Positions 11,116-37,716 of a DNA stretch of 64,000 nucleotides are shown piece by piece. Positions within the stretch are counted from its first letter, which is position 1; each line of letters begins with the position of its first letter. The position numbers and the translations under genes were made by a program. The notes under the pieces are model-generated. The model was not told the origin of the DNA. It saw nothing but the letters and a program-made list of their open reading frames with translations, and searched no databases. The DNA is from Dillenia suffruticosa (lineage: Eukaryota; Streptophyta; Magnoliopsida; Dilleniales; Dilleniaceae). Location of the stretch: positions 9,818,001 to 9,882,000 of the forward strand of contig JAVTVX010000017.1 in NCBI GenBank assembly GCA_033439265.1, in the 5' to 3' direction.

Positions 11116-14100
11116 ATGGCGGCAAGTGACAAGCTTGTGGCTAGCATTATTGTTTATGTCACCGTCCCCAATCGTGAAGCAGGTCTCTCATTTCTCATCC
11201 TCTAGTTTCTGATTCTTAATCTTTTGTTGTTGAAATTGCGGAATGAGAGACAATAAATTGGGGTAACGTAGTAAAGGATAGGAATAAGGAAACAGCCACT
11301 AAGAAGAAGTAAAAGAAACAACCTAAATTCTTGTCAAACAAGTTCAATACAAAAGAATCTGTCATCTTCCTCCCGAACCCCATTATTTGCAAGAGCTGGA
11401 CTATTCAGCTTGATGCTTTCATAACTTCTCTAAGAAACCATATCCCTCCTGGTAAACGTATCAATACCTACTAATTTTCAAGAGTTACCAACATGAACTT
11501 GGTAGGAATTATAGCATTAGTGTTCCATGCATCATCCTCCCCGGGTGAGAGTAAACTCGTTCATGAGTGAGCATTTTTCCCGAAGTAATGAGCTGATTTC
11601 TTGCAGAAGTTTTTGTGTTATCTTCATCTCCAAGAAACTCTGTTAAGTCTTGCACATTGAATGTAGAATGGGTTTGAACACTATCAGGAAGCTCCACCTT
11701 ATACGCATTATCATTCGTTTTCTTTGGAATTCAACACAAACCAATCTTTATTTTAAGAAGTCCGTTGTAGCAGCCCGAAGGAAAACATTCCTTCTTCAGA
11801 TAAACACAAACTAGAATTCAGCTTGAGGAAGCACGGAATCCCATTGTTCACGCCTTTTTGACACAAACCCCTGCACTGTATTTCCCTAGTTGCAGTTGAC
11901 ATACTTGGTTTCCCCGTTCGGTTGAGGATAGTAGGCACTGCTGTACCGCAAGCTGGTGCCGATTTTCTCCTGCAAGCATCTCCAAAAATGGCCAAGGAAC
12001 TTTTCTTGATCACATGTGATAGACTTAGGCAATTCCATGATGTTTGACTACCTTGCCTGGCAGTCTGCTTCCCTCCGAATGATGAATCCACTTGAAATAA
12101 AGGCTAGCAACATAGGAAGCATCCATAATATTTTTACCATGATGAAAGTGAGCCATTTTAGTGTATTGATCAACAGCAAAATGGGAAAAAAATAAAAAAG
12201 AATCAAAGCATCTTTGTGTTATCGTGATAAACATAATCTTTGTAGTACCCTTCCTTGCAATGATTCCATATTTCAGCAAAGCTTTCATTGCTATTGTACT
12301 TTTCCTTGATGGAATCAAACTCTTCACGTTGTACACTTAGTCTGTTTACAAGAGCCACAGGCATACCAAGTACATCTGCAACTTCATTTCATTTTCTGCA
12401 GGCATACTAAGTGCATCTGCAACTTCGTTTCATTTTCTGCTCTTGAGATAGAAAACTCCTACAAGAACAAAATCCAACTAGCATGCCTTATATTCAGATT
12501 TTCCTAACTATTAATGTGCTTATGGGCTTTATGGTTTGGATTCATAACAAATTTCCTTTGAATTGGATAAAAGCACCAATGCCAAGGTGTTGGAACAATG
12601 GAATACAGCTCTAGATGACAAGCAGAATACTTTTTCTTTGTGTCATTGAGGTGTTCTTTATTTTTTATTTTTTTCCCCCTTTCCCTAAAGAAAGTGATGA
12701 GGTGGCCTTCTTGGCCAAGTACACCACCAATACCCATTTGAGAGGCTTGCGTGCTTCGAAAATCTTTTCAATGTCTTGAAGAAAGTCACCATTGGAGCAC
12801 TACCAACTTCTTGCTTAAAGGCCGGAATTTTCTCCGCTTGTGGTGACCACTTGAATTTTGCTTTCTTGTGCAAGCTACCAGTGGTGCTGCTATGGTGCCA
12901 AGATTTAGTATGAACTGCGATAAAATGCTAATCTATCAAAACTTCTCGCTTCTTGGAGGCTTATGGGAGCGGTCATTCTTGAATAACTTTAATCTTCTCA
13001 TCATGAACTTCCATACCTCTTAAAGTGTTAGGCACAGTTCCCATATGCATCATGTGTTCATCCTTGTTTCTGCTATAAACAAGGATATCGTACAACAACA
13101 AATTTACCAATGAAAGGATGGAAATTCAGTACCCTCATAAAAGTGCTAGGCGGCAGTGGAGAGTCCAAATGGCACGATGAGCCACTCATATAAGCTTTCA
13201 TGGGTCTCGGAAGTAGTCTTCCATTGATTTATAGGCTTGATTTGAATTTGATGATAGTTGCTTCAAATATTGACTTCGGCGAACACTTGAGCTCCACAAA
13301 GCATGTCAAACGTGTCATCAATTCTTGGGATAGGAAACCTATACTTCATAGTGATCTGATTGATGATATGACTATAAATGAACATATTTCATGATCCTTC
13401 CTTCTTTGGAGTGAAAAGAGTGGGTATTGCGCAAGGGCTCGTGCTTCCCCTAATGTAAACCTTTTCGTGCAACTCTAAGACCTTTTTATTCAACTTCTCG
13501 CGTTCCTTTGTGCTCATACCATAATAGCTTTATTTGGTAAACTAGAATTAGGGATCAAGTCAATTTGGTGTTAAAGGGGAGTAGGTAACTCCTCAGAAAT
13601 TACATCTCTAAATTCTTTCAAAAGGGATTCAATCTCACAAGGAATACCAAAAGTTTTCTCCCTCTCATTGGTCATCAGCAAGTACACCATTCTACTTTCC
13701 TCACTTTTTTTTGGACAAACTTTGTCCAAGTAAGGAAAATAGTTTCCCCACCGCTTAATGATCTAGTTTTGGCTTCTTCTTTCAGGGCAAAAGAAAATTT
13801 TCTACCCTTTTTATTCTAAATGCCTAAGTTTTCCATGACCATCATGGTTGAAACACCTATTATTTTGCCAAGGTATATGACTAGCATCCATGAGAAGTAT
13901 GTCACACCAAATTTGATTTTTGTAAATTTTTTCCTTAAAAATTGAAACAAGCCTTATACTCCTTACCTTTCTTGAACCATGCAAGCTTCTAGGGTTTTGC
14001 GTGAGGTTTTGCCTTGAGCTTGAGTTTAGTCACCAATTCATTTGAGGCAATATTTGCATAGCTTCCATGATCTATTATCAATGAGCAAACCTTCTCTTGG

Positions 14101-17100
14101 TAGTGGCATTTTGTCTTGAATATATTGTGCTGAAGCCAATCTTTGTCTTAATTTTTTTTTTACTTTTTTTTTGCCTCAGCAGTGGCAAGAGTCTTTTGGA
14201 TAATCAAAAAGTAATGGTCTAATCTCTTCCCACTCTTGATCTCTCCATAATTATCATAAATTGGTATAAGAGTTTCATCAACATGGTATTGCTCATCTAC
14301 TTCTTCTCTTAGATTCATCTACCTAAACAAGAATTCATTTGATTGATAGCTAATCTGCAAGCATTTGAAACCGGTTATCTGATGGTTACCTTGTCTTGCA
14401 ATTAAGCTTTTTGGGGTGAGTTTGCTTGCTTCTTGATGTGAATTTTCAAGCGTCTTATTAATACTCTTTTTGTGAGAAGATTCACTCCTTAAGCATATAA
14501 TACAAGGTAGGATGGTAAGCAAATCTTTGATCTTGATATGACCTCTCTGGCCTTCACTTTCAAGGCCAACTGTGAAGCTTCATCTATTGTGTCGTATTTC
14601 CACTACATCTTGAATTGAATACTTCAAACTATTGACATACCTTGCAATCAGTTGCTCTTCAGATTCTTGGACATCATTACGGGCTAGCAAACTGTAAATT
14701 TTTAGTGTAATCGGTCTCACTTTTTGCCTCTTGATGAAGGTTGATAAATTGTGTGAAGGTACTTTGAGCAAAGTTGGGGGGAAGAAAATCTCCTCGTCAA
14801 GATTTTATTTTCTCCCAACTCGAGATCTTGGCTTTGCCCTTGCGAACTTGCAATTCTTAAACTTTGTCTCACAATGTGGAAGCATAACCATGGCACCTTG
14901 TTGCCATCAATTTCACCTTCTCAGTTTCAGGACTATCTTGATAATCAAAGAAGTTTTCAACAGCACTCAGCCAATCAAGAAATTCTTCTCCTGAAGATGA
15001 CCATGGAATTCTAGCAACTCCATTTTAATGGCATCCCAAAGTTGGAAATCCTCTTTACAATGCACCTTCTCAGGTTTGACACTCTGCAAAATGATTCACA
15101 TTGTCGAGCTTAGATCAAGGGTGTTTTGCAAGGGAAGCGAGCACTAATGTAGCCATCCGGAGAGGGATAAGGAAAACATAGAAAATAACAGCCCCTAAGA
15201 AGAAGTAAAGGGAAGTGAGCACAGCTCAACCTAAGTTCTTATTAAAGAAGTTCAATACAAAATAATATGTCATCCTCCTTTCCAAGTCCCTTAACGGTAA
15301 GATCTAAAATCATTGATAACAAGGTCACCATTTAGCTTAATGCTCTCATAACTCCTCCAAAAAGCTACATCCTTCCTGGTAAAGGTATTAATACCTACTA
15401 ATTCCCAATTGTCACCAATATGAACTTGGTAGAGATTATAAAATTGGTTTCCACTACTTGACATAGCAATTAGCATTATACTTGGATGTATTTGATGAAT
15501 GCACCTGTGGCTTTAGAAGATTGAGATGGAAACCCTAGATTGTTAATAATTTTGTGTTCATTCCAACAAGTTCTTGCTATTGTTTTCTAAAATGCTTGTT
15601 CTAGGGGTCATGTTTGATATGAATGGCTAATAAATAGTATGCAGTTATTCACATGGCTATTGGGCTGATTTTTTTCCATTCAATCTGAATTAGGTCTTTT
15701 TATGAGTGCTGAATTTTCCTTGTTGCAGGAAAGAAGCTAGCACAAAGCATTGTCAAAGAAAAACTTGCGGCTTGTGTCAATATCATACCAGGTATGTATT
15801 AAACTTCTTGAGAATTGAACCCCTGGGCATTGCCCCTTTATGTTATGATATTCAATTTATAATCCTTAGCTGATTAAGAAACCTACTACATTTGGGTTCC
15901 CTCTGCTATTACTATTGGACATTCTTTTCTCATGCCCTTGTTAATTAGGTGACATAGTTGGATCATCTTCTCCAAATTGACCTTTTTCTATTCCAATTCT
16001 TATAACTGTTGATGTATCATGACCTGTTATATGTAAACTTTTCGTGAAACTTAAAGTGACCTATCACTTGAATTCTCAAACTTGTCCAAATGTCAAGTGA
16101 GTTCTGTATGCCTGACATGGTTTTGGTTATGGATTCAGCTTTCAGTTTGGAGTAGTCGTGCATAGTAGCTGGTAGGGCAACATGGATAGTGTGTAATAAT
16201 TGGCAATGTTGAATGAGACACTTGGTCATTCGTGGTGGGTGTTGTGTGGTGGACAAGAAGTTCTGAAATTATCTCTTGCATGACTTTTTAGTTTTGGAAT
16301 AGGCTCCTTTCGTGCTTGTTAATTTAATATCTAGTTTGATTATTAAGTTTGTTAGAGATCAAATTGTGATGATTAATTTTTCAACCTATTAAAATATGGA
16401 TAAAGATTTTTCTAGCTTCCGTGATTGCTGTACATGAAAATGAGATAACATGTTATTATTGTGCAAGTACAAAATAAAGAGCTGCTATGTGAAATAAGTT
16501 CATAAAATATCAAATCTTGATGCATGCATTGCATGAGTGACTGAAAATTCAGAAGCGGCTTCTCAGTAGAAGTACCTGTGCGACACAGAGCATAATGTAT
16601 TTCAACAGAAGAATCTTCTTGTTTTCTGATTCTGGCAATTTTTGATTTTATGTTTCTGATGGAGAATCTCTTATCTTTCAGCCCTTTTATCTCTCTAATT
16701 CAGGGATGAGAAGCATTATCAATCATTTTGACTTATTGAAGATTATAGTTGTAAATTAACAAAATAATGTAGGGATCTCAATCATCATTGTGATTGTGAT
16801 GATCTTTTAATGTAATCATAGTAGAAATGCAGGATTCCGGCTCCTCATGCAAGCAATTTTTCATCCTCCATATCAGACCAAGAATTCTAAACCTGCTTCA
16901 ATGAGTGCAATTTATGTGGGTACTTGGATTTAACAAGGAATTATGGAAATTGTACACATTATAAATTTGATTTTCCTCATACTAGATCAAACTTATCTAC
17001 CTGTTTCAGTCATAAACTGCCAATCACGATTGTTGTGTAGCATTCTTCCAGAGTCGGATCTCATTCCTTCTAGAGGATGGTGTGGTAGTTGTCGACTTTA

Positions 17101-18110
17101 CTTGATAGAGGTTGTCTATATAACCTATAGCTTTAGTTCTTGGGCTGGGTTTGCCATCCCCTTTTTTATTCCTCTTTCACTGACTTATTGAAAGTGTTGC
17201 CTTCATCAGCTGCGTCAACAGTTAACAGTCAAACTGAATGTCAAGCGGGAGCCACCCCCCCTCCCAAAAAAAAGAAATAACAATGTCCTGGTCTTGAGGC
17301 CATCTTAAATGTGAATTGCGCTGTCAAATTGAAAAACTGTTTTCATTATAATTTTAAAGCTAGCTTTGCTGTAATTGTTCATCATTGCAAGCGAAGAGAA
17401 TCTGGAACCTTCAAAAAAACATGTTGGCAGGATTGTACCAGTGTTAGGGTTCCCTGTAGTTGAAGGACATTTGAAATTATCAAGATTGTTTGATTCTTTG
17501 TGACAATTGTTCAATGAAACTTAATTTACACATCTCTTTTTCTCCATAAATGAAACACTAGCATCTCATTTCTCTATATAAGTTCTTGTAGACCATTTAT
17601 TTTTCTTATTACTTAGTCTTGGCTATCTTATGTTTGATTGCTTGTTTTCTACAGGTATTGAATCCATCTATCAGTGGCAGGGGGAGCTAAATGCTTGATT
17701 ACTTGTTCTATGGTTTTGTAAATATAGTGATATTGTAACTTTTACCCTGGGGCTGTCTTTAATGGGGGAAATTCATGTTACAAGCTTATGAGAAAATAAA
17801 TTGTTGGTGAAGGCTTCTCCAAGATGGTCTATGATTTTATAGTGATATTATGGGAACAAGAGGAGCATTGTTCAATTCCCCTGTTTTCATGTAAAGCCAA
17901 GGATTTTATGTCCTGTCTCTAACTGTTGACTGAAAAATAACCACTGAAAGCAGCTTCTTGAGAAAATTATTCGTTTCTTTTCCTTTCCAAATGCTCTACT
18001 ACCGGGTGCAGATCCAGACGGATTCAGAGGAACTTCTGATAATCAAAACTAGGGAGTCCCTCTTGGAAGCTCTAAAAGAGCATGTAAAGGCAAATCATGA
18101 GTATGAGTAA
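11116..18110 (+). pseudogene. CUTA: CutA-type divalent-ion tolerance protein, apparently disrupted
   Basis: CutA proteins are small trimeric proteins linked to copper binding; plant forms usually carry an organelle-targeting extension. Exons seen: 11116-11182, 15729-15791, 17655-17686 and 18012-18106. Together they encode the family core: YVTVPNREAG, KLAACVN, GIESIYQWQGE, IQTDSEELLIIKTRESLLEA and HVKANHEYE. Intron 1 (4.5 kb) holds a Ty3/gypsy fossil. Oddities: the donor after exon 3 reads CT, not GT (17687-17688). The last exon, expected to encode VPEVIALPI and about 16 further residues, is not found between 18107 and the 14-3-3 gene. Without splicing after exon 4 the frame stops at 18108-18110. 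Upstream, 10921-11115 is open in frame and looks like a targeting peptide (Ser/Arg-rich, then hydrophobic) but has no ATG and is preceded by TAA. A PMD transposon begins about 100 bases after exon 4. Identity is firm; function looks lost or altered. Confidence 0.8.
11255..15480 (-). mobile_element. Ty3/gypsy LTR retrotransposon fossil inside CutA intron 1
   Basis: Diverged direct repeats at about 11260-11520 and 15160-15475 are the two LTRs. Between them, on the minus strand, the parts follow the Ty3/gypsy order: gag-like sequence near 14.3-15.1 kb, reverse transcriptase near 13.0-13.3 kb (an ILVYS stretch), RNase H near 12.7-12.9 kb, then integrase core near 12.0-12.3 kb (a KMAHF stretch). 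It is broken many times over and the LTRs differ widely, so it is old. The edges are approximate. Confidence 0.75.
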
Positions 18111-18199
18111 GTTAAAATCTTTTTACTGCTCAGTGTTACTGATAAAATGGTCTGTAACTTAGAAATGCTTAAGAACAAAACTTGAATTGCTTGGTTTGT

Positions 18200-18208
18200 C
18201 ATGCAAAG
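18200..18208. repeat. Left copy of a 9-bp imperfect target-site duplication
   Basis: CATGCAAAG here pairs with CATGCATTG at 23854-23862, 7 of 9 bases the same. They sit exactly outside the inverted ends of the PMD element, and 9 bp is the usual Mutator-type duplication length. Confidence 0.6.
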
Positions 18209-18799
18209 GGGCATTTTACTAAAATATTGCAATTTTGGTTTTAAATTATTAAAATGATGTAATTTTTTTCTTCCAAATGTATTGATGCTACGTTTGGAAA
18301 AAGCGATACCACTGTTTTTCGACTTTTTTTTTTTTTTCTAAGAAAAGAAATCCATGATGTCAAGTTATGGGGATGTCGCGCTTTGTAAGAACGACATGAA
18401 CAGAACATTGATGTCGCATTCCTGGAGTGTGACATTCATGTCGCGTTTTGGGAGTATGATAACAATGTTGCGTTTTCCAACCACGGCATCAACTTTCATA
18501 CCTTACAATTTCAACTAATTTCACTTCAAGTTCTCCTATATAAGTTCAAAACAATTTCAATTGATTTCTCCAAAACATATATCACCAAAATCTTTAATAC
18601 CTCCAAAATAATATACACCTCCTCAAACAATACAATTCATCAGTGGAAAAATACATGGTGAAATCACATAAGGAGAGAAATTACAAGAAATTATATTAAT
18701 AAGAAATTATGAATAGAGATTGAAATTATATTTTATAAAATTTAAATGTAATATGCTTAGTCTACACTAAGTCCCGTAAGAAGGTTGTCTAACATTTCG

Positions 18800-20470
18800 T
18801 CACAGTTGACGTTTAATGGGAATACGAGTGGACCTACCAAGCAGAGGTAAAGGACTACTATATGGCTGTGTACTCTCATCACCGTTGGGGAATGTGGTTA
18901 CAACTAACCCAGTATCATTTAAAATATCGACAATGACACCGCTGATAAAAATTAAGATGTGGAGTCTCACTCGGTACAGTATTATCAATATTCTAAGAAA
19001 CAGATGTAAATACCAAAGTGGGGTTAGATATAAAAATGAATAGGTATCTTTATTGGATCGTCATAGTCACCTACAGTATCAGAAGTGGATGAATTTCTAG
19101 ATCAATAGTTCTATGTGGACGTGGAAGGATGGTAATATTTAGGTGGCACATGTCCAATCAGTTGTAGTGTACGTCATAGCATATCTATGATGTATCTAAC
19201 TCAAAAATTCATTTCTTATATGATATGGATATCAGATACTACTAAATGGATGTTTTGAAATTATAGCACTGTAGAAGACAGAATTGTAAAAAAAATATAT
19301 TATAAAAATAATAAAAGTAATATTAAACAGCAAATTTCTTTTGATTTACGAAAATCTCCATCTATGTTACTATCGGTTGAAAACCCCACTAATAACGATG
19401 TGTAGAACTGTCAATATCTATACGGGTGATATGAGAATACCGGATCATATAGTTATTTGTTGTCGTGATATCACCAAAACATTTCTTTCCGTCAATAATA
19501 TAATATTAATGGTTAGTTCATAACTGTAAAGGTACCGCATATACCTTAGTCCAATCTTATTAACCTCTCTTACGTCGATTAGTATAGTGTATCTCCAAGT
19601 CAGTTTGTCTGGGTAAAGAAATGTCCTACTACAAGCCAAATTGTCTTATAATCTTCTTAAAAAAATGAAACTCGATGACCTACAGAGACTCGACGAGTGT
19701 CGCATCCAACGAGATAATACGCGGACAACGCTTTCAGCTTAACATATGAATATGACATATAAATAAATTGAAAAAAAAAGAAAAAAAATAGTGTTAGTTT
19801 GATCTATTGTATATTGTAATAGAAGTGATCGACAATATTCACAATAAAATTTAAACTCATCTGATCCTCCCTTACATGATCAAGTTGATTATGATAAATT
19901 TGAAAAATAAACTGACCGATCAATGTGGAATTATACAAAGTGAAGAAGAGAAAATTAAAAAAAATGATAAAAGTAGTAAGCATAACGTACAAAGATCCTC
20001 TAGCCCCGCCAGATATGTTCAAAGCAATGGATAACGTACATAAGGCCAACATATAGCCTCGTGAAGTGTCGTCAAGATGGCAAGGCTTTAACTATACCGT
20101 TCAGTACAATCAAAATCTCGTAGAATCTCTAAATACATGAGTTTCACTCTTGACTCAGGCTTGTACGTCCAAAAGACAATCCAATAGCTGCATAATACGA
20201 CCCTACATGTGAATCTCTACGAATGTCGTATCTAATTCGGGAACCATAGGATATAAATCAAGAAAAGTCGTGATCGTCCGTCATTTAAGTTAAGTCTATG
20301 AAAATCCTTTGAATTGGGAATGAAACCCTTGAGATTACGACTTATATCTTATTATTCAGTAATAGAACGAGTCGAGCGTTTCCCAATAATTCTCTCTATC
20401 AATAGACAATCCGAGCAAGACTTAATCGTAATTTAGTATAATCAAAATCTCCTAATAGGTAAGTGAAAGA
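18800..20470 (-). pseudogene. Decayed PMD gene, left-arm copy
   Basis: This is the minus-strand counterpart of the right-arm gene. Readable pieces include a GSLYVML stretch in 20052-19804, the segment at 19639-19445 that parallels right-arm 22570-22740, a YSHITRI stretch near 19.43 kb, and a C-terminal DTGLVVT stretch near 18.9 kb. Stops and frame changes interrupt it throughout. PMD proteins are found both on plant transposons and as host silencing factors of the MAIN/MAIL family. This copy cannot encode a full protein. Confidence 0.6.
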
Positions 20471-20789
20471 TATGAATTTTTATTTTCATCTCTCGACTAA
20501 TGTTATGATAAGTGTATGATGACACTAAATATGTTCACATCAATATACGTCCCAAAAATTCATCCGTAACAAAATTTTCTGGATCACATGTACATAACAA
20601 TAATAGTAGAGATTTTCAAATATTTGTATTATCATATATATATATATATATTAAAAAATAATAATAATTAAAAATTATCAAACAATATCTGTGATCATAT
20701 AAAACAATAAGTTCTGAAAATTACAAAATATAAGATTATTGAAGAAGACAATGATACAATATAATACAAATATATAATACATAAAACTT

Positions 20790-20885
20790 TCAGTTTTGTC
20801 TTGTCATCTTTTGCAATTGGGTCATATTTGGGCAATAATTATGATTATATTCGTATTTATCACAAGTTTTGCAACGCTTATACAA
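20790..20885 (-). pseudogene. Zinc-knuckle remnant, left arm
   Basis: The minus strand reads RCKTCDKYEYNHNYC, a CX2CX4HX4C-type knuckle in which the His position is Tyr. Such knuckles close the MURA-type transposases of plant MULEs. The rest of the transposase is absent. Confidence 0.45.
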
Positions 20886-21109
20886 GTATGTGTAGAATTT
20901 GTGCGGACATGAAATGTGAGTTTATGACACTTGTAGGCAAAATTCACAGTTGACAATCAATTCTTCTTACCTATAGTGGCGAATTTCATCCTCTTCTACA
21001 TAAAGATTATTAATTCCCTCATCTCTTTGTTAACCAATGTTTCATGCCTTAACTATTAGCCAGATAGACCATGTAACATGCAAATTCGTAATAAAATGGA
21101 TTAAAAAAG

Positions 21110-21190
21110 AATTCGGCGTTGTAAGGCTTGTGATGTATATGAGCATAATCGTAACCATTGGCTAAACATGTTTGGTCGCACTAGAGGACA
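21110..21190 (+). pseudogene. Zinc-knuckle remnant, right arm
   Basis: The plus strand reads RCKACDVYEHNRNHW, the same CX2CX4HX4C frame as in the left arm. Here the His is kept and the last Cys is Trp. The two arms have therefore lost different zinc ligands. Confidence 0.45.
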
Positions 21191-21477
21191 AGTATTTGTG
21201 TTATATTGTACCATTGCCTTCAATTATCTTGTATTTTTGTACTTTTCAGAACTTATTCTTTCATGGATCATAAATATTGTTTGAAAATCTTTCATTATTA
21301 TTTTTTTTTAATTTTCTTGAAGTGTTTGATAATTTTTACTATTGTTTTTGTGTACATGTGATTCAGAAAATTTTATTATGGATGAGTTTTTATAGCATAT
21401 GTAGGTGTGGGCATATTCAGTACAATTATACATTTATTGTAGTATTGATCGAGATATGAAAATAAGAAATTCATATG

Positions 21478-23222
21478 TTACACTTCTCTGTTGGTGAGAT
21501 TACGATTACACTACAGGACGTTTCAATTTTGGATTATTTGATAGAAAGGCAATTATTGAGATAGATTTGGTTTGTTTTATTGCCGAATGGTAGGATATAT
21601 GCGTAGTTTCATGGGTTTCATTCCCAATTGAGAGGATTTTCATGGAGACTGACTTAAATTATGGGTGATCACGACTTTTTTTTATTCACATCTTCTAGTT
21701 TCTAAATCATATGCGACATTCGTAGAGTTTTATGTGTTGAGTCGCATTATACATCTATTGGGTTGTTTTTTGGGAAACAAGTCTGAGTTGAGGGTAAAGT
21801 TCATGTATTTGAAGTTTCTAGGAGATTTTGATTGCGGTGGATGGTATAGTTGAGGTAGTGTTATTTTAGTAGCACTTTATAGAGTTATGTGTCCGGTTTT
21901 TTTTAATGAAGTTAGATAGATTTTTTATTCAGTTTTATCTATACAACTATTATATCTCTACTTTATCTATTCTTTTTTTTATACAAACACTTTATATAGA
22001 TATTATATATTTTATTCAATTTTTTTCTTTTACCAGTTTCGAGTATGAAAGATTGATATTTATCTCGATTAGACGTCATAGCGTTGATCCTATGCCTATT
22101 GCTCCGAACAGGCCTGACAGCTTTAGAGAATCTCTGTATGTTATGTTATATTTTTTATTTTTCTCTGCTTCATTTTGTATTACTTCGTATTAATTTTGTT
22201 TTACTTTTAAATAGTTAGGATGTTTTTCGCAATTATGTAATCAGTTTGTTTTTCAAACTTATCAGGATAATTTGATCATATGTGGGAGGATGTGGTAAGT
22301 TTAAATTTCATTTTGGGTATTGTCAACCATTTCTATTATTACGGATCAAACTAACACTATTTTTCTTTATTTTTTTTTTAGTTTTTTTTGCTACCATATT
22401 CATATATTGATTTGGAGGCGTTGTCAGCGTATAATCTCCTTAGTTGCGATATATGGCGTATCTTTGTCCCACTTTTATGTTTCGAAATTGTTGAGTTTCA
22501 TTTCGTTAAGAGAGCTATGAGATAATTTGGTTTGTAAAAGGATATTTACTTATCCATGAAATCGAGTTGAAGTTGTAACGTATTGATCGACGTGGAAGAG
22601 TTGGACAAAATTCGAGTAGGGTACATGCGTTACCTTTATAGCTGTGAATTAACCGTCAATATTATATTGTCAACGGAGAGCAGTGTTTTGGTAATATTAT
22701 GACAACGGGTGACGATATGATGTTAGTATTGCCATATCATTCGCATATACATCGGCAGTTTTACGCATCGTTATCGGTAGTGTTTTTGGTTGACATAAAT
22801 GGAAATTCTTATAAGTTAAAAGAATTTTACTATTTAATATTATTTTTATTGTTTTCATAATATATTTTTTTTTATAATTCTATTTTTTGCAATTCTATAA
22901 TCTCAAAAATATTCACTTAATAACATTTGATGTCATTATCGTGGAAGGAATGGATTTTTGAGTTTATTACATCAGAGATATGCCATGGCGTACACTCTAA
23001 TTGTCTGAAAATGTGCCATTTGAGGGTTACCATCCTTCGACATTTAGAGCTCTTACTGAGCCAAAAATTCCATCTACTTCTGATACTACAGGTGATTATG
23101 ACAATCCGATAGAGATACCTATGTCATTTTCATATATGACTCCCACTCCAACATTTTCCCCTGTTTTTGAGAGTATCGACGATATTATATTGAGTAAATC
23201 TCTATATTTTAATTTTGCCTAA
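21478..23222 (+). pseudogene. Decayed PMD gene, right-arm copy
   Basis: Family landmarks appear in the right order. GEITITLQDV (21493-21522) is the PMD opening motif. 21665-21853 encodes a stretch with LLGCFLGNKSEL and GGWYS, followed after a stop by an ALYR remnant. Next comes RRHSVDPMPIAP near 22.07-22.10 kb. 22390-22530 encodes PYSYIDLEAL and later VEFHFVKRAMR followed by a QFGL-like remnant, the equivalent of the family's EFH...DRVLRQFG. A ID-RGRVGQN remnant and an IIRIYIGS stretch follow, and a Pro/Thr-rich tail lies near 23.1-23.2 kb. Stops and frame changes break it. The PMD identity is strong, but which PMD subfamily is not determined. Confidence 0.65.
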
Positions 23223-23853
23223 TGACGTTGTTGTCCATATTTAGATGATACCGGATATGTTACAGTCACATTTCTCGATAGTGATGAAGGTACGTAGCCA
23301 TATGGTAGTCCTCTATTTTTGTCTAGTAGATCTGTTCGTATTCTCACTAGATGTCAGTCGTGAAAATATGTTAGACGATCTCCTTATAGAACTTATTGTA
23401 GGTTAAGTGTATTATATTTTGTAATCTATAATTTCAATTTCTATCCATAATTTTTTGTTAATATAATTTTTCATAATTTTTCTTTTTATATGTCTTTACT
23501 ATTTATTTTTTCCACTGCAATTGTTGAATGAATTGTGTTGTTTGAAAATGAGTATGTAGATTTTGGAAGTGTCGTATGTATTGGAAAAATCAGTTGAAAT
23601 TGTTTTAGAGTTGTACAGGAGAAATTGGAGTGGAATCGGTTGAATTTGGGCGATGTAGGAAATGATGTCGTAATTGCGATATGCGACACTGTTGTCATGT
23701 TCCCAAAATGCAATATCATGGATTTCTTTGTTTTGTTTAAAAAAAAAAAAAAAAATCAAAAAACAATGATATCGCGTTTTTCAAATGCAACGTCTGCGAA
23801 AAAAAAAATGTCATTTTAATAATCAAAATTGTAATATTTTGGTTAAAAGCCCC

Positions 23854-23862
23854 CATGCATTG
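23854..23862. repeat. Right copy of the 9-bp imperfect target-site duplication
   Basis: CATGCATTG follows the last bases of the PMD element directly and pairs with the left copy at 18200-18208. Confidence 0.6.
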
Positions 23863-24733: not shown

Positions 24734-27444
<2,711 letters not shown>

Positions 27445-27522
27445 TGCAGATAGAGAGAGAGAGAGAGTGAGTTGGTCGTGTTTTTTGGTTTTTGGTTGGT
27501 GACGAGTGACGGCCTTAGTCAA

Positions 27523-27794
27523 GGAGAGGTTATAGAAGACAGTGTGAGGAGCGTCGGATGGAGAAGAAGTTTAATGTGAAGCGTTGGATTTGGTCAGCGG
27601 ATGAGGAAGCGCCTATCGTTTCAAAATGAGCACAAAAAGTCTACAGAGACCGGTACTCCATCGCAATCACGCAACTCAACACAGCACAACCACCGCGCTT
27701 TCTCTATTTTCCCTCGCATCGCATTTTTTCTTATTTTTTTAATAATACAATTAAAAATAAAATTATATATTCAGTGCCCTCCGATCTCGATCGT
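27523..27794. promoter_or_regulatory. Proximal upstream region of the 14-3-3 gene
   Basis: This is a GC-richer stretch directly upstream of the minus-strand 14-3-3 leader. No TATA box or named element can be assigned with confidence. Confidence 0.3.
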
Positions 27795-28850
27795 GAGATT
27801 ATTTCAAAAATACAATAATTGAGTATTTAAATTTTAAAAAATATAATAAATTTGATGACACATGATTCAATACCCGTAACCATAAAAGCTTAGGCATTAG
27901 GGCCATTAAGCCATAGAAAGTCCACAACCTTCAAGTGGTTTCTCGCTAAAATACCTAAAATGATTAAACATTGTCTTGGCCACAACTAGGTTGAACATTT
28001 TCTAGGTTTGCATCCTCGATCACCTCACCTCTCGATTAGGTCTCTCAGTTACTACATTAGCAATCTCTAATTTTGCAAGTCTACGCTAAAAGTAAACTTT
28101 TTTCTAATCCGATACAAATCTCACAAGAAAGAAAATTTATGTGATAATTTAAATTTTTTTTAATCATAATAATCATAAATCTCCTATAAATCTTGGATTA
28201 TAATCCCAGCAATCTTAAAATATTCCCAAAGGTCTCTCCACGATGTAAGTAGGATTTCTATGCCTTTTGCTTTATAGGCGCACACTTTATATACTGCGTA
28301 GAGATCTATGAAAGGTATGCAAATAGTCAACTCTACACACCCCACACACGAAGACAACATAGGGTCTTTCTAAGAATCTACTTAGTCTGTTTTATTTTTC
28401 ATTATCGCTCTTTCTGATTTGAGTATCGAAGTATCTTTCTTTGGAAACACCTTCGGTAGTATTTGTTGGTCTCTTCTCCTACGACGGTCCAGAAGACTCA
28501 TCAACATCAACTTCTTCCTGACTCAGTGGAGCAATTATCTACAGAGCAAAATTCACCTCTAACAAAATTGATTATTCTGTCAATAATAGTGTCACGCTGA
28601 TTATTAAATAATAAGTTAGAATAATATGTCATTTAACGTAAAAATCAATATCGCTTATTACTTTAGCATTCTAAACTAATGATATGACATTTTGGAGCGT
28701 CAACAGGTGATATTTCATGTCAAATGGCACAAGATTCCAACTTACTATTTAATGATTAGCGTGATATCATTATTATCGTAAGGTTCAATTTATTATATTT
28801 TTTAAAATTTAAATATTTAATCATTATATTTTAGAATTTGTAAACATAAT
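27795..28850. mobile_element. MITE with long terminal inverted repeats, split by a solo LTR
   Basis: Without the inserted LTR, the left arm (27795-27852 plus 28565-28640) pairs with the reverse of about 28700-28850. For example TATTTAAATTTTAAAAAATA near 27825 recurs reversed near 28800, and the GTGTCACGCTGATTATTAAA part pairs with a TAATGATTAGCGTGATATCA type arm. The ancestral unit was about 340 bp with arms of about 150 bp. There is no coding capacity. The superfamily is not clear because the outer target duplication could not be seen. Confidence 0.65.
27853..28564. mobile_element. Solo LTR, probably Ty3/gypsy, inserted in the MITE
   Basis: The unit starts TGATGACA, ends TCTAACA and is 712 bp. 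A perfect 5-bp duplication AAATT lies at 27848-27852 and 28565-28569. Removing it rejoins the two halves of the MITE arm. No internal retrotransposon sequence is present, so it is a solo LTR left by recombination. The style of its 3' third recalls plant gypsy LTRs, a weaker inference. It is younger than the MITE and looks whole as an LTR. Confidence 0.72.
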
Positions 28851-29340
28851 TGTTAGCTAATCACATGATACAAAGATTGAATATAAAATTTTCTATATAA
28901 TTAAATTAATACAAAAAATTGATATCACCCCTGCATCCAAAGTGACCCTTGAATAGGCACGAGTTCGCAGGTCCAATTGGTGCTCACTGCTGACTCCACC
29001 ACATCCACGGCTACCCTACCGTTGTTCCTACCTTCAATGGTGAATGGTAACTTCAATCAATGGATTCCCCTTTTTAAATTAGTTTTAAATTGATAATAAT
29101 TTTTGTAACATGGAGAGATTCTAATTGGTAAAAATACGATGTGAAAATACTTTTTTCAGTGATAAAAATTATATTTAAAATAAAATAAAAATAATTTATA
29201 AACATTTTTTTGGAAAAGCACAGAAACATCGTCAAAGGCTTCTTCTACATTCACTCGTGGACTTTCTACTCAACTCCATCAATATTTTTCACCACCCAAA
29301 ATCAAACCAACTTCTCACTCAGAATCAGACCACCTAAAGC
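28851..29340. other. AT-rich spacer
   Basis: I see no gene or repeat pair here. Confidence 0.4.
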
Positions 29341-29377
29341 AATCCTTTTTTGACCCCTTTTGTTCTCCAACTTGCTA

Positions 29378-29385
29378 AAACCCTA
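29378..29385 (+). promoter_or_regulatory. Telo-box in an orphan leader-like stretch
   Basis: AAACCCTA is followed by CT-rich sequence and a CT run at about 29465-29484, directly before an ATG. This is the usual look of a plant 5' leader, yet no full gene follows. Confidence 0.3.
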
Positions 29386-29484
29386 GAAGACTTCATCTCT
29401 CTATTATCTTCTTTATCACTTCCTCCTCTTCAAAAGATAAGAGAAATCACCTCAGAAACCCTCCCCTCTCTCTCTCTCTCTCTC

Positions 29485-29595
29485 ATGGCCTTCAAGAAAA
29501 GACGAACATTTTCGCTTCACAAACACTTCTCTAATCAAGCATTCCCAAGTCCAATCCATTTCAAAACCCTAACCCTGATCGTTTGTAGGTTTTAG
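29485..29595 (+). CDS. Short open frame behind a leader-like stretch, unrecognised
   Basis: The ATG follows a CT run and opens MAFKKRRTFSLHK. The frame stops after 36 residues, and I see no clear donor and no downstream exon of a known family in the next kilobase. It could be a real small gene, the first exon of an unrecognised gene, or the remains of a gene whose body was lost. I do not recognise it. Confidence 0.18.
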   Translation: MAFKKRRTFSLHKHFSNQAFPSPIHFKTLTLIVCRF

Positions 29596-29599
29596 ACGA

Positions 29600-30384
29600 T
29601 ACCCATTCGCCCAAATTGGTTTTTTATTCATGGATTTTTGGTCAATTCTCTTTCCCAAGTCTCAAATTTGCCGAATCGGGTTGTCTTGGTATCACCGTGA
29701 GTAGTGATTTGCCTTTGATGATGACCGATGACAATTTTTTTTTTTTTTGGTACAGGACCGATGACAATGACTCTTCCCCTTGACTCTGAAGGGCAAAAAG
29801 TGGCATGTAATTTTCTTGGGTTTGAGAGGCGGGTTTCTATAGAAATTTATCATTTTATTTGAATTTTACAAAATGCTTGATTCATGGCTTTCATTCCAAA
29901 ATCTTTTTTCTCGTTTTGTTAACCCAAATGATTTATAAAGATTTCAAATTATTTTCATATCCTCTGACCAAATACCAAGATTTTAAATTCATTGTTAATT
30001 TTCATACTCTTTAATCAAATATCACTTAAATACAAACGGTTCTTCCGCAGCAATCCGAGCTTGGCAGGTTGCACCAGGAGTGATAAGGGATCATTTCATA
30101 GGGTTTTTGGGTCATAGGCTTTTCCACAAACCTCGGTTGGGCATCTTCTTCGAAACTTAAGGCCTAGGCCGTCAAGGCAGGCCTTCCATTGGCAGTAAAT
30201 CTAGGTTTAAAGCACCTTATTGTCGAAACACAATTCTATTGCGACCATCAATTTGTTGAATGCGGATTCATTTAACCACAACCGCTCTCTCTTATTGACG
30301 ACTACGTGTTTTTTGATGAGGAGTTTCGCTGTTCGAGTTTTGAAGCCCTCTTGCCAGATTGGCTGCTACGAGGCTTTTTGATTA
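29600..30384. other. Spacer, nothing recognised
   Basis: There is mixed-composition DNA near 30.05-30.37 kb and AT-rich DNA before it. No exon of a known family is seen. Confidence 0.35.
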
Positions 30385-30566
30385 GGTGACGTTTGATTAA
30401 TTACAAGGAGAATTTAAATTCCTATGAATTATTTAAATTAATAGAATAAAAATAAAAATTTAAGAATAAAACTCTCATAATAAGGGTTTATAAAATCCAA
30501 ATTAAAACATGAACTTTGTAAAAATTGTTTTCAATTTAAATTTCAATTTTCGAACCAAATGTCCCC
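30385..30566. mobile_element. Tourist-like (PIF/Harbinger) MITE, 182 bp
   Basis: The ends are imperfect inverted repeats, GGTGACGTTTGATT on the left and, reversed, GGGGACATTTGGTT on the right. A TTA lies directly outside each end (30382-30384 and 30567-30569), the 3-bp target duplication of this superfamily. It has no coding capacity. Confidence 0.65.
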
Positions 30567-30569
30567 TTA

Positions 30570-31898
30570 CAATTTTGTATCAGAAGTTACTGTCCTAATA
30601 AATATCAATAGCTATTCATAATATTTTCCCCAAAAAAGGGAAAAAATTCTTTTAGCTAAATTAGGGTCTTTTGGACTTCGTAATAAGGATAACACCCTTA
30701 ACCCAACAAAAAAAATGACTCCTGTTGAACTTAGGAATTATTTTGTGCCATATATATCTTTTTAATCGAATTTAATAGAAATTTTGTTCTCAATAAGGCT
30801 AATAGCAGTTGAAGTTGCCTATTCACAGTCCCAGCTTTCATCTTTTTTTTTTTTCCCCAATTTAACACTTATTATATTTTTATTTTTCACTGCAATTTAA
30901 CACTCAAAACTAATTATCGCCAATTTATAATTCTAAAAAATCAATTTAATTTGTGTCTTGGAGAACTCCTAAATCTAAACATATTTGCACACGCTCTCTC
31001 TTTTAAAACTCTATTTATTTTAAATTTTCTCTCTTTAAATACAATAATTTAAGTTCTCTCTATAAAAATAAAAACCAAATTTTATTGCTCTCTATTCAAA
31101 ATTAATCTATTAGTTGTCATTCTAAAAATATAAAACTTAAAAAGAGAAAAGTCTGAATAGGTAAATTGGGCATTTGACGGAAATTCATCACATCCTTAAG
31201 TTCAATTATTTTTTCTGAACCATAATGGTAATGGAGAATATTTCTTTTGTTTGAACAAGCGTCTCACGAGAAGGCACGAAAACGAAAACGAAAACGAAAG
31301 CGAAACGAAATCCCATGTTTTTCTTCATTGTAACATTCTGATTTCACCCCCTACATATTAGTTTACCTATTACCGTTTCAACTTGTAACGGTTTTAGTAT
31401 CTCAAACAACATCAAAGGTTCTCTGTCATTATGCAATTTGAGTTTGTAGAAATGCATGATCTATACGATGTTGTCTCAATCCTAATGACACTGTCAAAAT
31501 TTTTTGAGTTTGGCTCTCAAGAATTAAGATTGTACCAGATCAGTGCAACCAAATGCAACTTGAGAGCATAAAGCAACCTGCACAACATAGAGGACTACAC
31601 AAAGTGCACCATCCTTTAATGGACCAAATCAACAAGGAGGTTGAACGATAGACAGTGGATATCTTCTTCTTGTTTTTTTTTTTGCTTGGGGTTTTTTTTT
31701 TTTTTGGGTAAGGACAGTGGATATCTTCAAGTGAAGATTGTTAGATATATCTTATGCCAGTTTTCGATTTGTACATGATCAGAGCTATAAACCTCCAATC
31801 TACCACTGCTTGTCCCCCTACCCTGTATGAGGCTTCTCTGGCATTACTAATGTGTCCAAAACAAAAAAGTAAACTGTTACACGCCGATGAGTCCTGGT
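30570..31898. other. AT-rich spacer downstream of the J-protein gene
   Basis: No coding exon is recognised. T-rich runs lie near 30.84 and 31.67-31.70 kb. The part next to 31.9 kb is likely the 3' untranslated region of the minus-strand J-protein gene. Confidence 0.4.
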
Positions 31899-34800
31899 TT
31901 ACCAGATTGAGTGCCTAATCCCAAGGCCATTGCATGTTAATATGAGGCCCTTGTAACGAATAAGATATTCCTGCAGGATATTTTTGACAAAGTCGGACAG
32001 AGGCCTATAAATAATGAACAATTGACTACTCATGGGCATGATATAGGAGAAGAGCTTACAGTGATATCATAGTCATGGACGTACAGCATCCTTCTTTTGT
32101 CGTATTCTCTCCTTTTCACAGGATCACCAAGAACTGTCAATTTGAGAAAATCCAAGAGTTATACATGGAATTATCATGAAAAACTTCCAGCTACTTTCTC
32201 CTATGTCGATAGAAACAAAGAAATTGCTTTGAATCAAATTACATGAATAATTTTAAATTGAACTACTGGGACAGAGGACAGCCAGAAATGACTCGCTCCA
32301 TGAAAAACAATAAAAAAAGCGATTTCCCATAACGTCACATAAGGTAGAGAATTTCTGGTGGCACCTAAGTTGACCAAATGAATAGCAGATGGTAGTGGCA
32401 AATGCTATAATGAAAGATTAAATAGGCTAGGCAATGAGAATGTTCTCTAATCAACATTAACTGACTAACAGTGGTTTTAGCATTTATTGGAACATTTGGG
32501 CAAAAAGTGATCTTGGTGGACAGATGCCCTCTTTGAAGAAGGATCTTGACTCAGTTGATCATGTCTGGTTTCCTTGCTCTTGAACAAGATGCTTGAGGGA
32601 GATGGTGTTTGCATTGCTTCATATCCAATTAGTACAGTCTTAAAGGTATCCTCAATGAAATGTGAGCATGGAGGAACAAGTTGTTGTGCAGCAAAGAAAG
32701 ATAACTTAATTGATCCTAAGCAACTTTTTGATTAGTTTAGAGGAAAGAAACATTAGCGGTTTTAAGGTCATTGAGAGACCCCCCTTTTGTGATGCAAATT
32801 TTAGCTTAGGACATTTTTTTAGGGATCTCTACCATTGTTTCTCTGTGTTAAAGTTAACTATGCCACTCTTGAAAAGCTGGGCAGATAAGAAGCCCCCACT
32901 TCCCACCCCACCAAAAATAAACAGAAAAAAAAAAAAAGATAAATAAAAAATCTCCACCCTGGTGGCTCCTTTTGTAGACAACGCCTCTAGGCGTAAAAGG
33001 TCAGAAAGAACCATTGTGGATAGAAGCCAGCTCTAGGAGCCCCTCCACTGGCACTTTAACTGACAAAAGGCAAATGAGATGCAAATGCAATTGTTTGGAT
33101 GTCCAGGCCCGTCCCAAGGACAATCCTGCCAATCTAAGGGAACGTTTAAAGAGTTCCATGAGGTCGGGATTGGGCCATTTGTTGCATCTCTTCATTTTAT
33201 CTTTTCTTCTATGACGAATAATCACATATGATGTGGGGTATTTAGCTGACTGAGACCAAATAATAGTTCATGATAACATTCACTCTACTAAACTTAGCAA
33301 CCCCCCCCCAAAAAAAAAACAATGGCTACATTGTTTACTTTTGACCACAAAGATTGCTTCTACCCTGTCACAAGAATTTCCTATCCATTGATGATGGGTA
33401 TTCTTAAGCGTGACCAAGCTTCAACTCCCACCCATTACATGAGAGTTCCTTGAATGTTGAACCTCCATCTCTCGTCCTAGTTAATAGGGCTTTGATGAAC
33501 TCACCTCAATCAAAAGTATGGGCTAAACATAGACACACAGATAAAGACATGGAAAACTACTGACACATTCTAATAATCAAAATGTATGTTTAACATAAAG
33601 TATGTATCCCCACGTGCAAATGATACCTAGATGAAATTAGTCTACGCTCTACACTCTATTTCACATGAATGAATATTTTTTTTTAATTGACAACATTCGG
33701 AACAGCAAAAATGCCTCAACAGCTGGAAGGGAATCCTGGTGTCCACCAAAACGTCTTTCCTAGGTGCAAATTATGCTGGATGAGGACAAATGCATATGAC
33801 TACAAGAAAGGAACAGATGAATAAAAACTTCCACATGCTTAGTGAATAAAATGCAGTATCCCACCCTTTAAAATGCTTACCAAGCATTTTCCAGCCCCCA
33901 TAGAAGTCAAATGTTCTACACCTCTTGAATAGAGTTAGACATGAGAGGACCAAAAACCAAAACAACCACCATCCAAACCGCAAAAAAAAAAACAAAAAAT
34001 AAAAACACTAAGTGCTCCCAATGCTCCAAAGAACACTAGCAGATCAACAGACATCAAAGAATTTCGTTACTGCAGAGAGCATATTACAGCATTCCATCTT
34101 TATTTTTTGGAAACATTGCACCTGTAGATTCACATGGCCAACCCGCACGTGAGAGGGAGGACTGAAAGAATACTTTTCACTTGTCATTAGAATGGAAGAA
34201 GCAAACAAGAAAAACCAAAATATGGGAGAATATTGTATTCTGTTGAAAGAAGGAATCCAAAACATAGTAGCATGACAATCCATCTTCAACAGAATGGAGT
34301 ACAGCGAAACATGGAAGCAGACAATATGCAGTCCATCACCCAATCAAGTTAGTTCAACACATATGGTAACTCCTTCCAGAATTTCCAGGTCAGCTCCTTT
34401 TTGGTATGTTTTCATCCAAAACCGATGGCTTACTCCTTGAAGCATTCACCAAAATTTACCCTCAAACACCATAAACCTACTTTGACCAAGAAGATTGACA
34501 TTAGCCTTTTGTGTGTTACATGATAGTGAGAAATATCTTGAAGCTATGCACATTGCTTCAGCTCAATTTGAGCTCTCAAACCTGATCCTGCCGATCTATG
34601 CACATCCTATCATTAGGTGCACAAATACTGCCTAATTTGAGTTAACCAGAGCTTATGGCAATTGTACATCGACTCGCCTAAAGTTTTTTCCCCAAGTATA
34701 CCATTTTGCAGAATGGCTAAATCAAAACAAAACATATTTAGTGACATTTTTTTCTGATGACTTCTCCTTTGTTTCCCCAAAATAACTGCCAAGAAGTTAA

Positions 34801-36253: not shown

Positions 36254-37711
36254 TTTAACAATTATGGTTAGTGATTAATTATAGTTAAAAATATTAATAA
36301 GTAATTAATAGAAATAATTAAATAGTTAGTAAAAATAGTATAGATAATAATATCAAGATATGTATTGGTATGAAATTGAATGTAAAGAAATATAATCTCT
36401 CTTTCTCTTTTGTATTCTCCCTTTCTCTTTCTCTATAGTCTTTCACTCTCTATCTCTTAATTCTCTTTCTTTCTTTCTCTCTTTTTCTATCTCTCTATAT
36501 ATTTTCCCTCTCTAAAGTGTATTGTTACAAATTGATATTACAGTCTACGAATCCTTGACTAGTATTGAAAAATGATAGATGAAATTGGGTATGAAACCAT
36601 TGAAGAAGAAGTTTGGTATGAACCTATGGAAGAACATTTTAAAAGACAAAAAATTAAAATACAAAAATTTTATTCACATATTAACAAGAAAATTGATGAA
36701 AACGATTGGAAGATTGATGAACAAAATCGAAAATCGGATACTTTTATGGCAAGTCTTGATGACAAATTCAACATTTTATTAAAAATGTTGGGTATTGATG
36801 AGAATATCAAAACTTTGATGGAAAAAGAGCAAGAATATGAAAAGAAATTGGAAAATAATGAAACAAATCAAGTGACAAATGAAACAATATTAACACACAT
36901 GAAAAAATAAGGTATTGATATATTTTTTGAGTTTTCCATTCTATTTTCTCCTAGTAAAGAAATGTTGAGATATACTCTTAGTGAATAAATGTTAAAGGTA
37001 GAAGAAAGATCACAAATGACTAAAGAAGAACCTATTAATGGTGATTTCTTATCAAACTTTTCAAAAGTTGAAATTTTGGCTTTCATCGAGAAAATTTTTT
37101 CATTAGAAGTAAGATTTCAATTGTCCAAGACAAAAGTTCTTTATGGTAGATTCTTGTCAAACTCTCCAAAAATTGAATTTTCATTATTTGTTGAGAAAAA
37201 TCATTCACAAAAAAATTCAAGAAATATCTCTATCAAGTTCTTTCATTTTTATTTTTCTCTCACTACTCTTCATGTAACTCAAGTTATATCAATTATTCGT
37301 TTTCATCATCTTATCTTTCAATACAAATGCAAGCAATGGTTCAAGATTTATGGATTCAAGTTTCAATTCTTGATTTTTTTTTTCTATTATTGAGGATAAA
37401 GATATTTTCAAGGGAGAAGTATTGTAACAACCATAGTTAGTGATTAATCATAATTAGAAATATTAATTAGTAATTAATACATTAATTAGTAATTAATATA
37501 AATAGTTAACTAATTAGTAAAAATAGTACAAATAATAATGTCAAAATATGTATTGGTATGAAATTGAATGTAAAAAAATATAATCTCTCTTTCTCTCTTG
37601 TATTTTCTTTCTCTTTCTCTATAGTTTTTCTTTTTCTATCTCTTAATTCTCTTTCTTTCTCTCTTTTTCTATCTCTCTATACATTTTTCATCTCTAGAGT
37701 AGATTGTTACA
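36254..37711 (+). mobile_element. Short non-autonomous LTR element, 1.46 kb
   Basis: The direct repeats at 36254-36529 and 37423-37711 are the LTRs, each with a TCTCTTTC-rich 3' half and ending GTTACA. A perfect 5-bp target duplication, CATGA, lies at 36249-36253 and 37712-37716. A purine run (AGGGAGAAG) sits just before the right LTR as a polypurine tract, and a worn tRNA-Met-like primer site may follow the left LTR. The 893-bp interior has no protease, integrase or reverse transcriptase. It holds an open frame at 36572-36910 that is charged and probably coiled-coil (gag-like at best). The ends look whole and the LTRs differ moderately, so the age is middling. Confidence 0.78.
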
Positions 37712-37716
37712 CATGA

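Follow-up and report, generated by a model that had tools for sequence, protein, structure and literature searches.

A palindromic PMD-bearing insertion in Dillenia suffruticosa, probably an inverted-duplication derivative of a Mutator-like element

The palindrome, its genes and its ends

One insertion in Dillenia suffruticosa reads almost the same from either end, and it raises the question of whether a single transposable element was copied into a mirror image of itself or two related elements came to lie head to head. The insertion, 5.6 kb long (18209-23853), is part of a stretch of 64,000 nucleotides that we refer to as the window and within which all positions are given (assembly GCA_033439265.1, contig JAVTVX010000017.1, positions 9,818,001 to 9,882,000 of the forward strand). 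An earlier reading made from the letters alone, here called the sequence-only reading, had described it as a Mutator-like element (MULE) with a plant mobile domain (PMD) gene in each arm. We confirm that the palindrome is real, report a strand asymmetry in the differences between its arms, and consider it probable that the insertion is one dead inverted-duplication derivative of a MULE, with the architecture of the maize locus Mu killer, that aged inside a host transcription unit. The parts of the element are as follows.

18209-20877, minus strand (reading outward): left arm, from its whole-length inverted alignment to the right arm
21116-23853, plus strand (reading outward): right arm, from its whole-length inverted alignment to the left arm
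20878-21115, no strand: central spacer with no significant inverted match, delimited by the end of the local alignment
20832-20876, minus strand: left zinc-knuckle-like peptide RCKTCDKYEYNHNYC, degraded, histidine ligand lost (translation, by eye)
21117-21161, plus strand: right zinc-knuckle-like peptide RCKACDVYEHNRNHW, degraded, last cysteine lost (translation, by eye)
19587-20557, minus strand: left PMD pseudogene (Pfam PMD at 19587-19724, the remainder by nucleotide homology to the right arm)
21388-22558, plus strand: right PMD pseudogene in several frames, with stops and frame changes (Pfam PMD)
18209-18238, plus strand: left terminal inverted repeat end GGGCATTTTACTAAAATATTGCAATTTTGG (sequence and alignment)
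23824-23853, minus strand: right terminal inverted repeat end GGGGCTTTTAACCAAAATATTACAATTTTG (sequence and alignment)
18200-18208, plus strand: candidate target duplication, left copy CATGCAAAG, weak (7 of 9 match)
23854-23862, plus strand: candidate target duplication, right copy CATGCATTG, weak (7 of 9 match)
18284-18485, no strand: left subterminal region with GTCGCGTTTT-like motifs (pattern matches)

Over the whole arm length, 18209-20877 and the reverse complement of 21116-23853 are about 76% identical. The underlying local alignment pairs 18081-20877 with 23971-21116 (1954 of 2591 columns identical, score 1871) and includes, at its outer end, some 100 columns of flank that match poorly; 30 dinucleotide shuffles scored at most 93, and 12 other 3-kb segments of the window at most 117. 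Inside the element, 1883 of 2469 columns are identical (76.3%; Kimura two-parameter distance, K2P, 0.30), and the arm differences comprise 435 transitions and 151 transversions. Identity lies between 63 and 89% in all 27 hundred-base bins of 18200-20877, and the match spans the full arms, not just their outer few hundred bases. The sequence-only reading had the palindrome continue to within about 100 bases of the center, which the alignment bears out: it reaches 20877 and 21116 and leaves 238 bp, about 119 bases per side, without a match. Compared again with each other, the two halves of this spacer gave only a gappy, weak match. An assembly artifact, in which one arm would be a spurious duplicate of the other, is an unlikely source of the palindrome, since the arms are 24% apart.

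The order proposed earlier for each arm, a zinc knuckle followed outward by PMD and a terminal repeat, is seen in both, with the degraded knuckle recognized by eye and PMD by matches that all fall below the family cut-off of 34.9 bits (PF10536). Each knuckle-like peptide, which we take to resemble the knuckle of MURA, has lost one metal ligand, a different one in each arm, and neither arm gave a Pfam zinc-knuckle match, whether submitted as arm translations or as separate fragments. The right arm matches PMD at 32.7 bits (E = 6e-8) and, in another frame, at 21.7 bits, covering profile positions 2-51 and 242-295, with 114-162 added when it was sent as pieces. The left arm reaches 16 bits (E = 0.007, profile 257-296), and no single stretch of it passed alone. 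As separate fragments, three of six right-arm and none of four left-arm pieces matched (3 of 10 overall); the left assignment therefore comes mainly from nucleotide homology to the right arm. Stops and frame changes are present in the PMD coding sequence of both arms, and an intron in the right pseudogene, judged by eye, would end at about 22390. A PMD piece compared with solved structures gave no match at E up to 1.

The element has the terminal inverted repeats of the MULE superfamily, beginning GGGC and GGGGC. Its two 60-base ends score 63 against each other, and no end-like sequence was found at 19800-22500, where they score 29-33 against shuffle means of 34 and 30. The presence of outward-facing ends only, with no inner ends, favors one inverted duplication over two joined elements. 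Matches to the motif G[AT][ACT]GC number five in the left 312 bp and two in the right 313 bp, counts that carry no chance control. A blastn search with the arms, which covered the 64-kb window, found no second copy there, the only matches in the rest of the window being two short, weak ones (57 nt, E = 1e-3; 103 nt, E = 6e-6).

The divergence between the arms looks mostly neutral, and coding sequence is no more conserved than the remainder. In coding segments picked by hand in right-arm frames (256 codons), 184 of 728 columns are mismatched, compared with 402 of 1741 elsewhere, and of the 101 codons with a single difference 29 are synonymous, where neutrality predicts 29.0 ± 4.4. Had two functional relatives been joined, better conservation of coding sequence would be expected; its absence disfavors a two-element origin. 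Three stop positions in these codons are common to both arms, among five right-arm and ten left-arm stops. We considered them as proof that the gene died before the duplication, but they are not decisive, as chance could account for them.

Strand asymmetry and the neighboring genes

Read on the plus strand, the arm differences are unevenly distributed, with 270 pairs reading G·T and 165 reading A·C (p = 5.5e-7). The G·T excess has the same sign in all six successive segments, three of which reach p < 0.05 alone, and it is positive in 36 and negative in 10 of the 46 non-zero 50-column blocks, with a block-bootstrap interval of 63 to 146. Three other alignment schemes returned G·T/A·C counts of 255/157, 233/144 and 275/169, and T·T likewise exceeds A·A (41 versus 14, p = 0.0004). 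From the center to the ends, the G·T:A·C ratio appears to fall, running 2.0, 2.2, 1.7, 1.5, 1.4 and 1.4. Since a palindrome presents the same sequence in both orientations, any bias intrinsic to that sequence cancels, and the asymmetry probably dates from after the joining of the arms, in a fixed chromosomal orientation. It suggests that the arms aged together. Assuming that C-to-T is the usual direction of change, we infer that C was lost faster on the plus strand in both arms. This asymmetry is a new observation at this locus; the sequence-only reading mentioned neither it nor a host gene.

A plus-strand CutA gene with at least four exons occupies 11152-18106, immediately before the element. 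Three of its exons are placed as follows.

15729-15791, plus strand: CutA exon 2 (sequence homology)
17655-17686, plus strand: CutA exon 3, whose expected GT donor reads CT (sequence and homology)
18012-18106, plus strand: CutA exon 4, followed by a GTAAGT donor (homology, boundaries by eye)

Exons 2-4, when joined, match Pfam CutA1 at E = 3.7e-24 and the solved chloroplast CutA 2zom, presumably from rice, at E = 3.3e-30. With the end of exon 4 about 100 bp upstream, the element probably lies inside the last intron of this gene, which we recognize by homology, and the asymmetry is probably due to CutA transcription that ran on through the element. On the plus strand, the CutA introns have a GC skew of +0.067 and an AT skew of -0.141 (resident retrotransposon excluded), with T exceeding A by 953 to 717 (p = 8e-9); the corresponding skews are +0.080 and -0.045 in the two arms pooled, and -0.196 and +0.159 in an assumed intron of the neighboring minus-strand 14-3-3 gene. 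At 6.5e-9 to 1.3e-8 substitutions per site and year, the K2P distance of 0.30 would mean, roughly, an age of 12-23 million years for the element.

The retrotransposon is an old long terminal repeat (LTR) element in CutA intron 1 (11291-15453). Its direct repeats of about 240 bp are 81% alike over 236 columns, so CutA carried another old insertion; gag-like fragments were noted by eye on its minus strand, and one of them had no Pfam match. The 14-3-3 gene (24831-27570, minus strand) is convergent with CutA; its open reading frame (ORF) at 26914-27570 matches Pfam at E = 1.4e-56, with the last exon placed by eye. Between these two genes, at about 24 kb, the base skew changes sign. Farther along, a pair of direct repeats of about 255 bp, 90% alike and 1.19 kb apart from start to start (36274-37714), encloses two open frames of 113 and 134 codons and is perhaps a small LTR-type element. 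Remnants of a reverse transcriptase resembling that of long interspersed nuclear elements lie at 51559-52368 on the plus strand (Pfam RVT_1 in two ORFs), and around them, at 50-53 kb, the skew of G over C is strong (+0.30 to +0.40). The minus-strand ORF at 428-790 resembles Cyclin_N (E = 0.002) and Ntox16 (E = 5e-5), both below the Pfam cut-off and the latter probably spurious. Rfam and tRNA scans of the window gave no matches.

A probable inverted duplication and its rivals

The origin best supported in our analysis is one in which the PMD-side part of a MULE was duplicated in inverted form, as the sequence-only reading had proposed; the largely neutral divergence, the outward-only ends and the strand asymmetry favor it. 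We infer a full-length parent that held transposase plus PMD, with the C-terminus of the transposase, including the zinc knuckle, followed by a PMD gene reading toward the terminal repeat. With the rest of this parent lost, its PMD-side half would have been copied head to head, likely through aberrant gap repair or template switching, yielding an element of 5.6 kb that carries one and the same end on both sides. The product would then have come to adjoin, and probably to lie inside, the last intron of CutA, where it would have decayed in a largely neutral way and for the most part through transitions; if C-to-T is the usual direction, that change went faster on the plus strand in both arms, probably under the influence of CutA transcription. 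Read-through RNA of the plus strand would fold into a very long hairpin that could once have acted against the parent family.

Both ingredients of this scheme, PMD on MULEs and inverted duplication of the Mu killer type, are already known from published reports. In several grasses and in Amborella, members of the PMD-C clade form fusions with MULE transposases, which makes the proposed parent plausible by analogy, and other PMD clades ride on Ty3/gypsy elements (PMC5418596). The insertion resembles these PMD-carrying MULEs in that PMD follows a transposase-like knuckle in the same direction, and differs from them in lacking a transposase core and in being duplicated and inverted. A close match is Mu killer, which derives from maize MuDR. 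According to PMC3440606, it is an internally deleted, partly duplicated element with same-side ends and inverted partial genes, its arms reach 1.298 kb into mudrA, and host genes lie on its flanks, with read-through from a flanking gene reported. The Dillenia locus shares the repeated element end, the inverted partial gene copies and the flanking host gene. Unlike Mu killer, it has arms of about 2.7 kb taken from the PMD side, 24% diverged and with broken genes, and it is known from sequence alone. The contrast with normal MULEs drawn by the sequence-only reading therefore overstated the novelty of the architecture. Among the papers listed in literature searches on PMD, MULEs, foldback elements or Mu killer, no title or abstract opening mentions a palindromic PMD-MULE.

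Several observations weigh against the inverted-duplication reading. Its MULE origin is argued from the inverted ends and the gene order, and PMD is carried by Ty3/gypsy elements as well, whose gag also has a zinc knuckle. A MULE transposase domain was not found in the six sense-frame arm translations at E up to 1, a loss that is expected of a deletion derivative. Against a Ty3/gypsy retrotransposon, on the other hand, the arms gave no Pfam match to reverse transcriptase or another pol domain, and the element has inverted ends and is not bounded by long direct repeats. As regards transcription, the excess of G over C in the CutA introns is borderline (473 versus 414, p = 0.051), and the GC skew has the opposite sign in the intergenic DNA upstream of CutA (-0.12) and in the retrotransposon of its intron (-0.088). 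Furthermore, this CutA copy is probably broken today, and the flanks may be rearranged. It looks broken because of the CT donor of exon 3 and because a CutA last-exon motif, allowing up to three changes, had no match in the window. Looser DNA matches at 5327 (plus), 43045 (minus) and 20244 (minus) include none on the plus strand past exon 4 and none that continues as CutA; the peptide NLEMLKNKT (18156-18185, plus strand) was rejected as the CutA tail, its 6/10 likeness to that tail being probably due to chance. Since the remaining exons keep open frames, the breakage would seem to be recent relative to the element. Codon positions also differ, with mismatches at 78/242, 44/246 and 62/240 of positions 1, 2 and 3 (p = 0.001). 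The pattern is clearest and constraint-like in the PMD segment 22388-22561 (18/52, 7/53, 21/52), while 22579-22707 has its lowest value at position 3 (16/43, 11/43, 6/43), and a frame-blind scan gave p < 0.05, uncorrected, in 7 of 25 overlapping 200-bp windows. Early constraint on the PMD coding sequence is possible, and owing to this signal we place slightly less weight on a single duplication and more on the joining of two elements. Finally, the imperfect 9-bp target duplication (7 of 9) claimed earlier is present, yet statistically weak: a match at least as good occurs in 0.4% of 20,000 random exact pairs and in 15% of 2,000 pairs allowed ±5 slack at both ends. MULE target site duplications measure 8-11 bp. 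The ATGCAT within this one is self-complementary, so that the same letters can be read as an extension of the terminal repeat, which may be all that they are, and a duplication of this kind does not show that the doubled form moved as a unit, as had been proposed.

How do other histories account for the same data? One MULE family could have supplied two members that had diverged before insertion, nested or side by side, and deletion brought them head to head. Arms of only 76% identity would suit this history, and the lower rate of change at codon position 2 might be a trace of selection that acted on the genes while they were still separate. We nevertheless hold it to be quite unlikely, given that non-coding sequence is conserved as well as coding sequence, that synonymous changes stand at the neutral expectation, that end-like sequence was not found near the center, and that an asymmetry tied to the chromosome strand is unexpected if the arms aged as separate elements. 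It is also unlikely, if a little less so, that the insertion belongs to a foldback-type MULE family in which very long inverted repeats are normal and that it moved here as a palindrome. A Mutator-like foldback family, Tm1, exists, with long inverted ends and 9-bp target duplications (PMC3169594), and the possible 7-of-9 duplication would agree with such an origin. However, the same report describes Tm1 ends as composite and internally redundant, with repeated short motifs in place of duplicated gene segments, whereas the arms here are gene-bearing half elements; moreover, other copies are absent from the window and the target duplication is weak. A foldback origin would be compatible with a one-time inverted duplication that moved later.

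A different proposal concerns the asymmetry itself, which might stem from selection for RNA hairpin pairing at a working hairpin or small interfering RNA (siRNA) locus instead of strand-biased mutation. In its favor, RNA of the plus strand pairs 87.2% of columns compared with 82.9% for the minus strand, and the predicted folds hold 2042 palindrome-register pairs at -2327 kcal/mol and 1886 at -1974 kcal/mol, respectively; the control was a single segment (28001-33645; -1215 kcal/mol) with no shuffles. But T·T, the most skewed class of differences, does nothing for pairing, the CutA introns have a skew of the same sign without any pairing, and the longest unbroken helix is predicted to be shorter on the plus strand (27 versus 39). 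A silenced siRNA source might carry the footprint of long CG and CHG methylation, and none is seen: C decay hardly differs between CG, CHG and CHH contexts (0.316, 0.333 and 0.308), counted with retained C pairs taken from both arms and every context treated alike. Such context independence speaks against methylation-driven decay; the methylation controls were too small, with 15 CHG and 3 CG sites in the LTR pair and none in the repeat pair at 36/37 kb. Taken together, we regard selection for pairing as very improbable.

A possible past silencing role and the use of old palindromes

If the insertion is an inverted-duplication derivative that was transcribed beside CutA for long enough to acquire strand-specific decay in both arms, it could by analogy have played a part like that of Mu killer, with CutA-driven PMD-MULE hairpin RNA acting against a then active parent family. 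We consider such a past role doubtful. Mu killer is newly arisen and silences a live MuDR; according to its report, read-through sense transcripts from the flank occur in plants that fail to silence, and antisense RNAs from an internal promoter accompany silencing (PMC3440606). A read-through hairpin is thus no safe model for silencing.

Were the role real, the locus would represent a Mu killer-type event that lasted in a lineage, beyond a newly arisen locus of maize stocks. Mu killer shows how an accidental inverted duplication of one member can silence a transposon family. A further case, old, independent of it and in a lineage that carries PMD, would point to such derivatives arising and lasting in nature. 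Apart from silencing, a palindromic insertion serves as an internal control for strand-specific mutation, because the bias that remains between its arms reports transcription or replication, and old inverted-duplicate insertions could be used in the same way across plant genomes.

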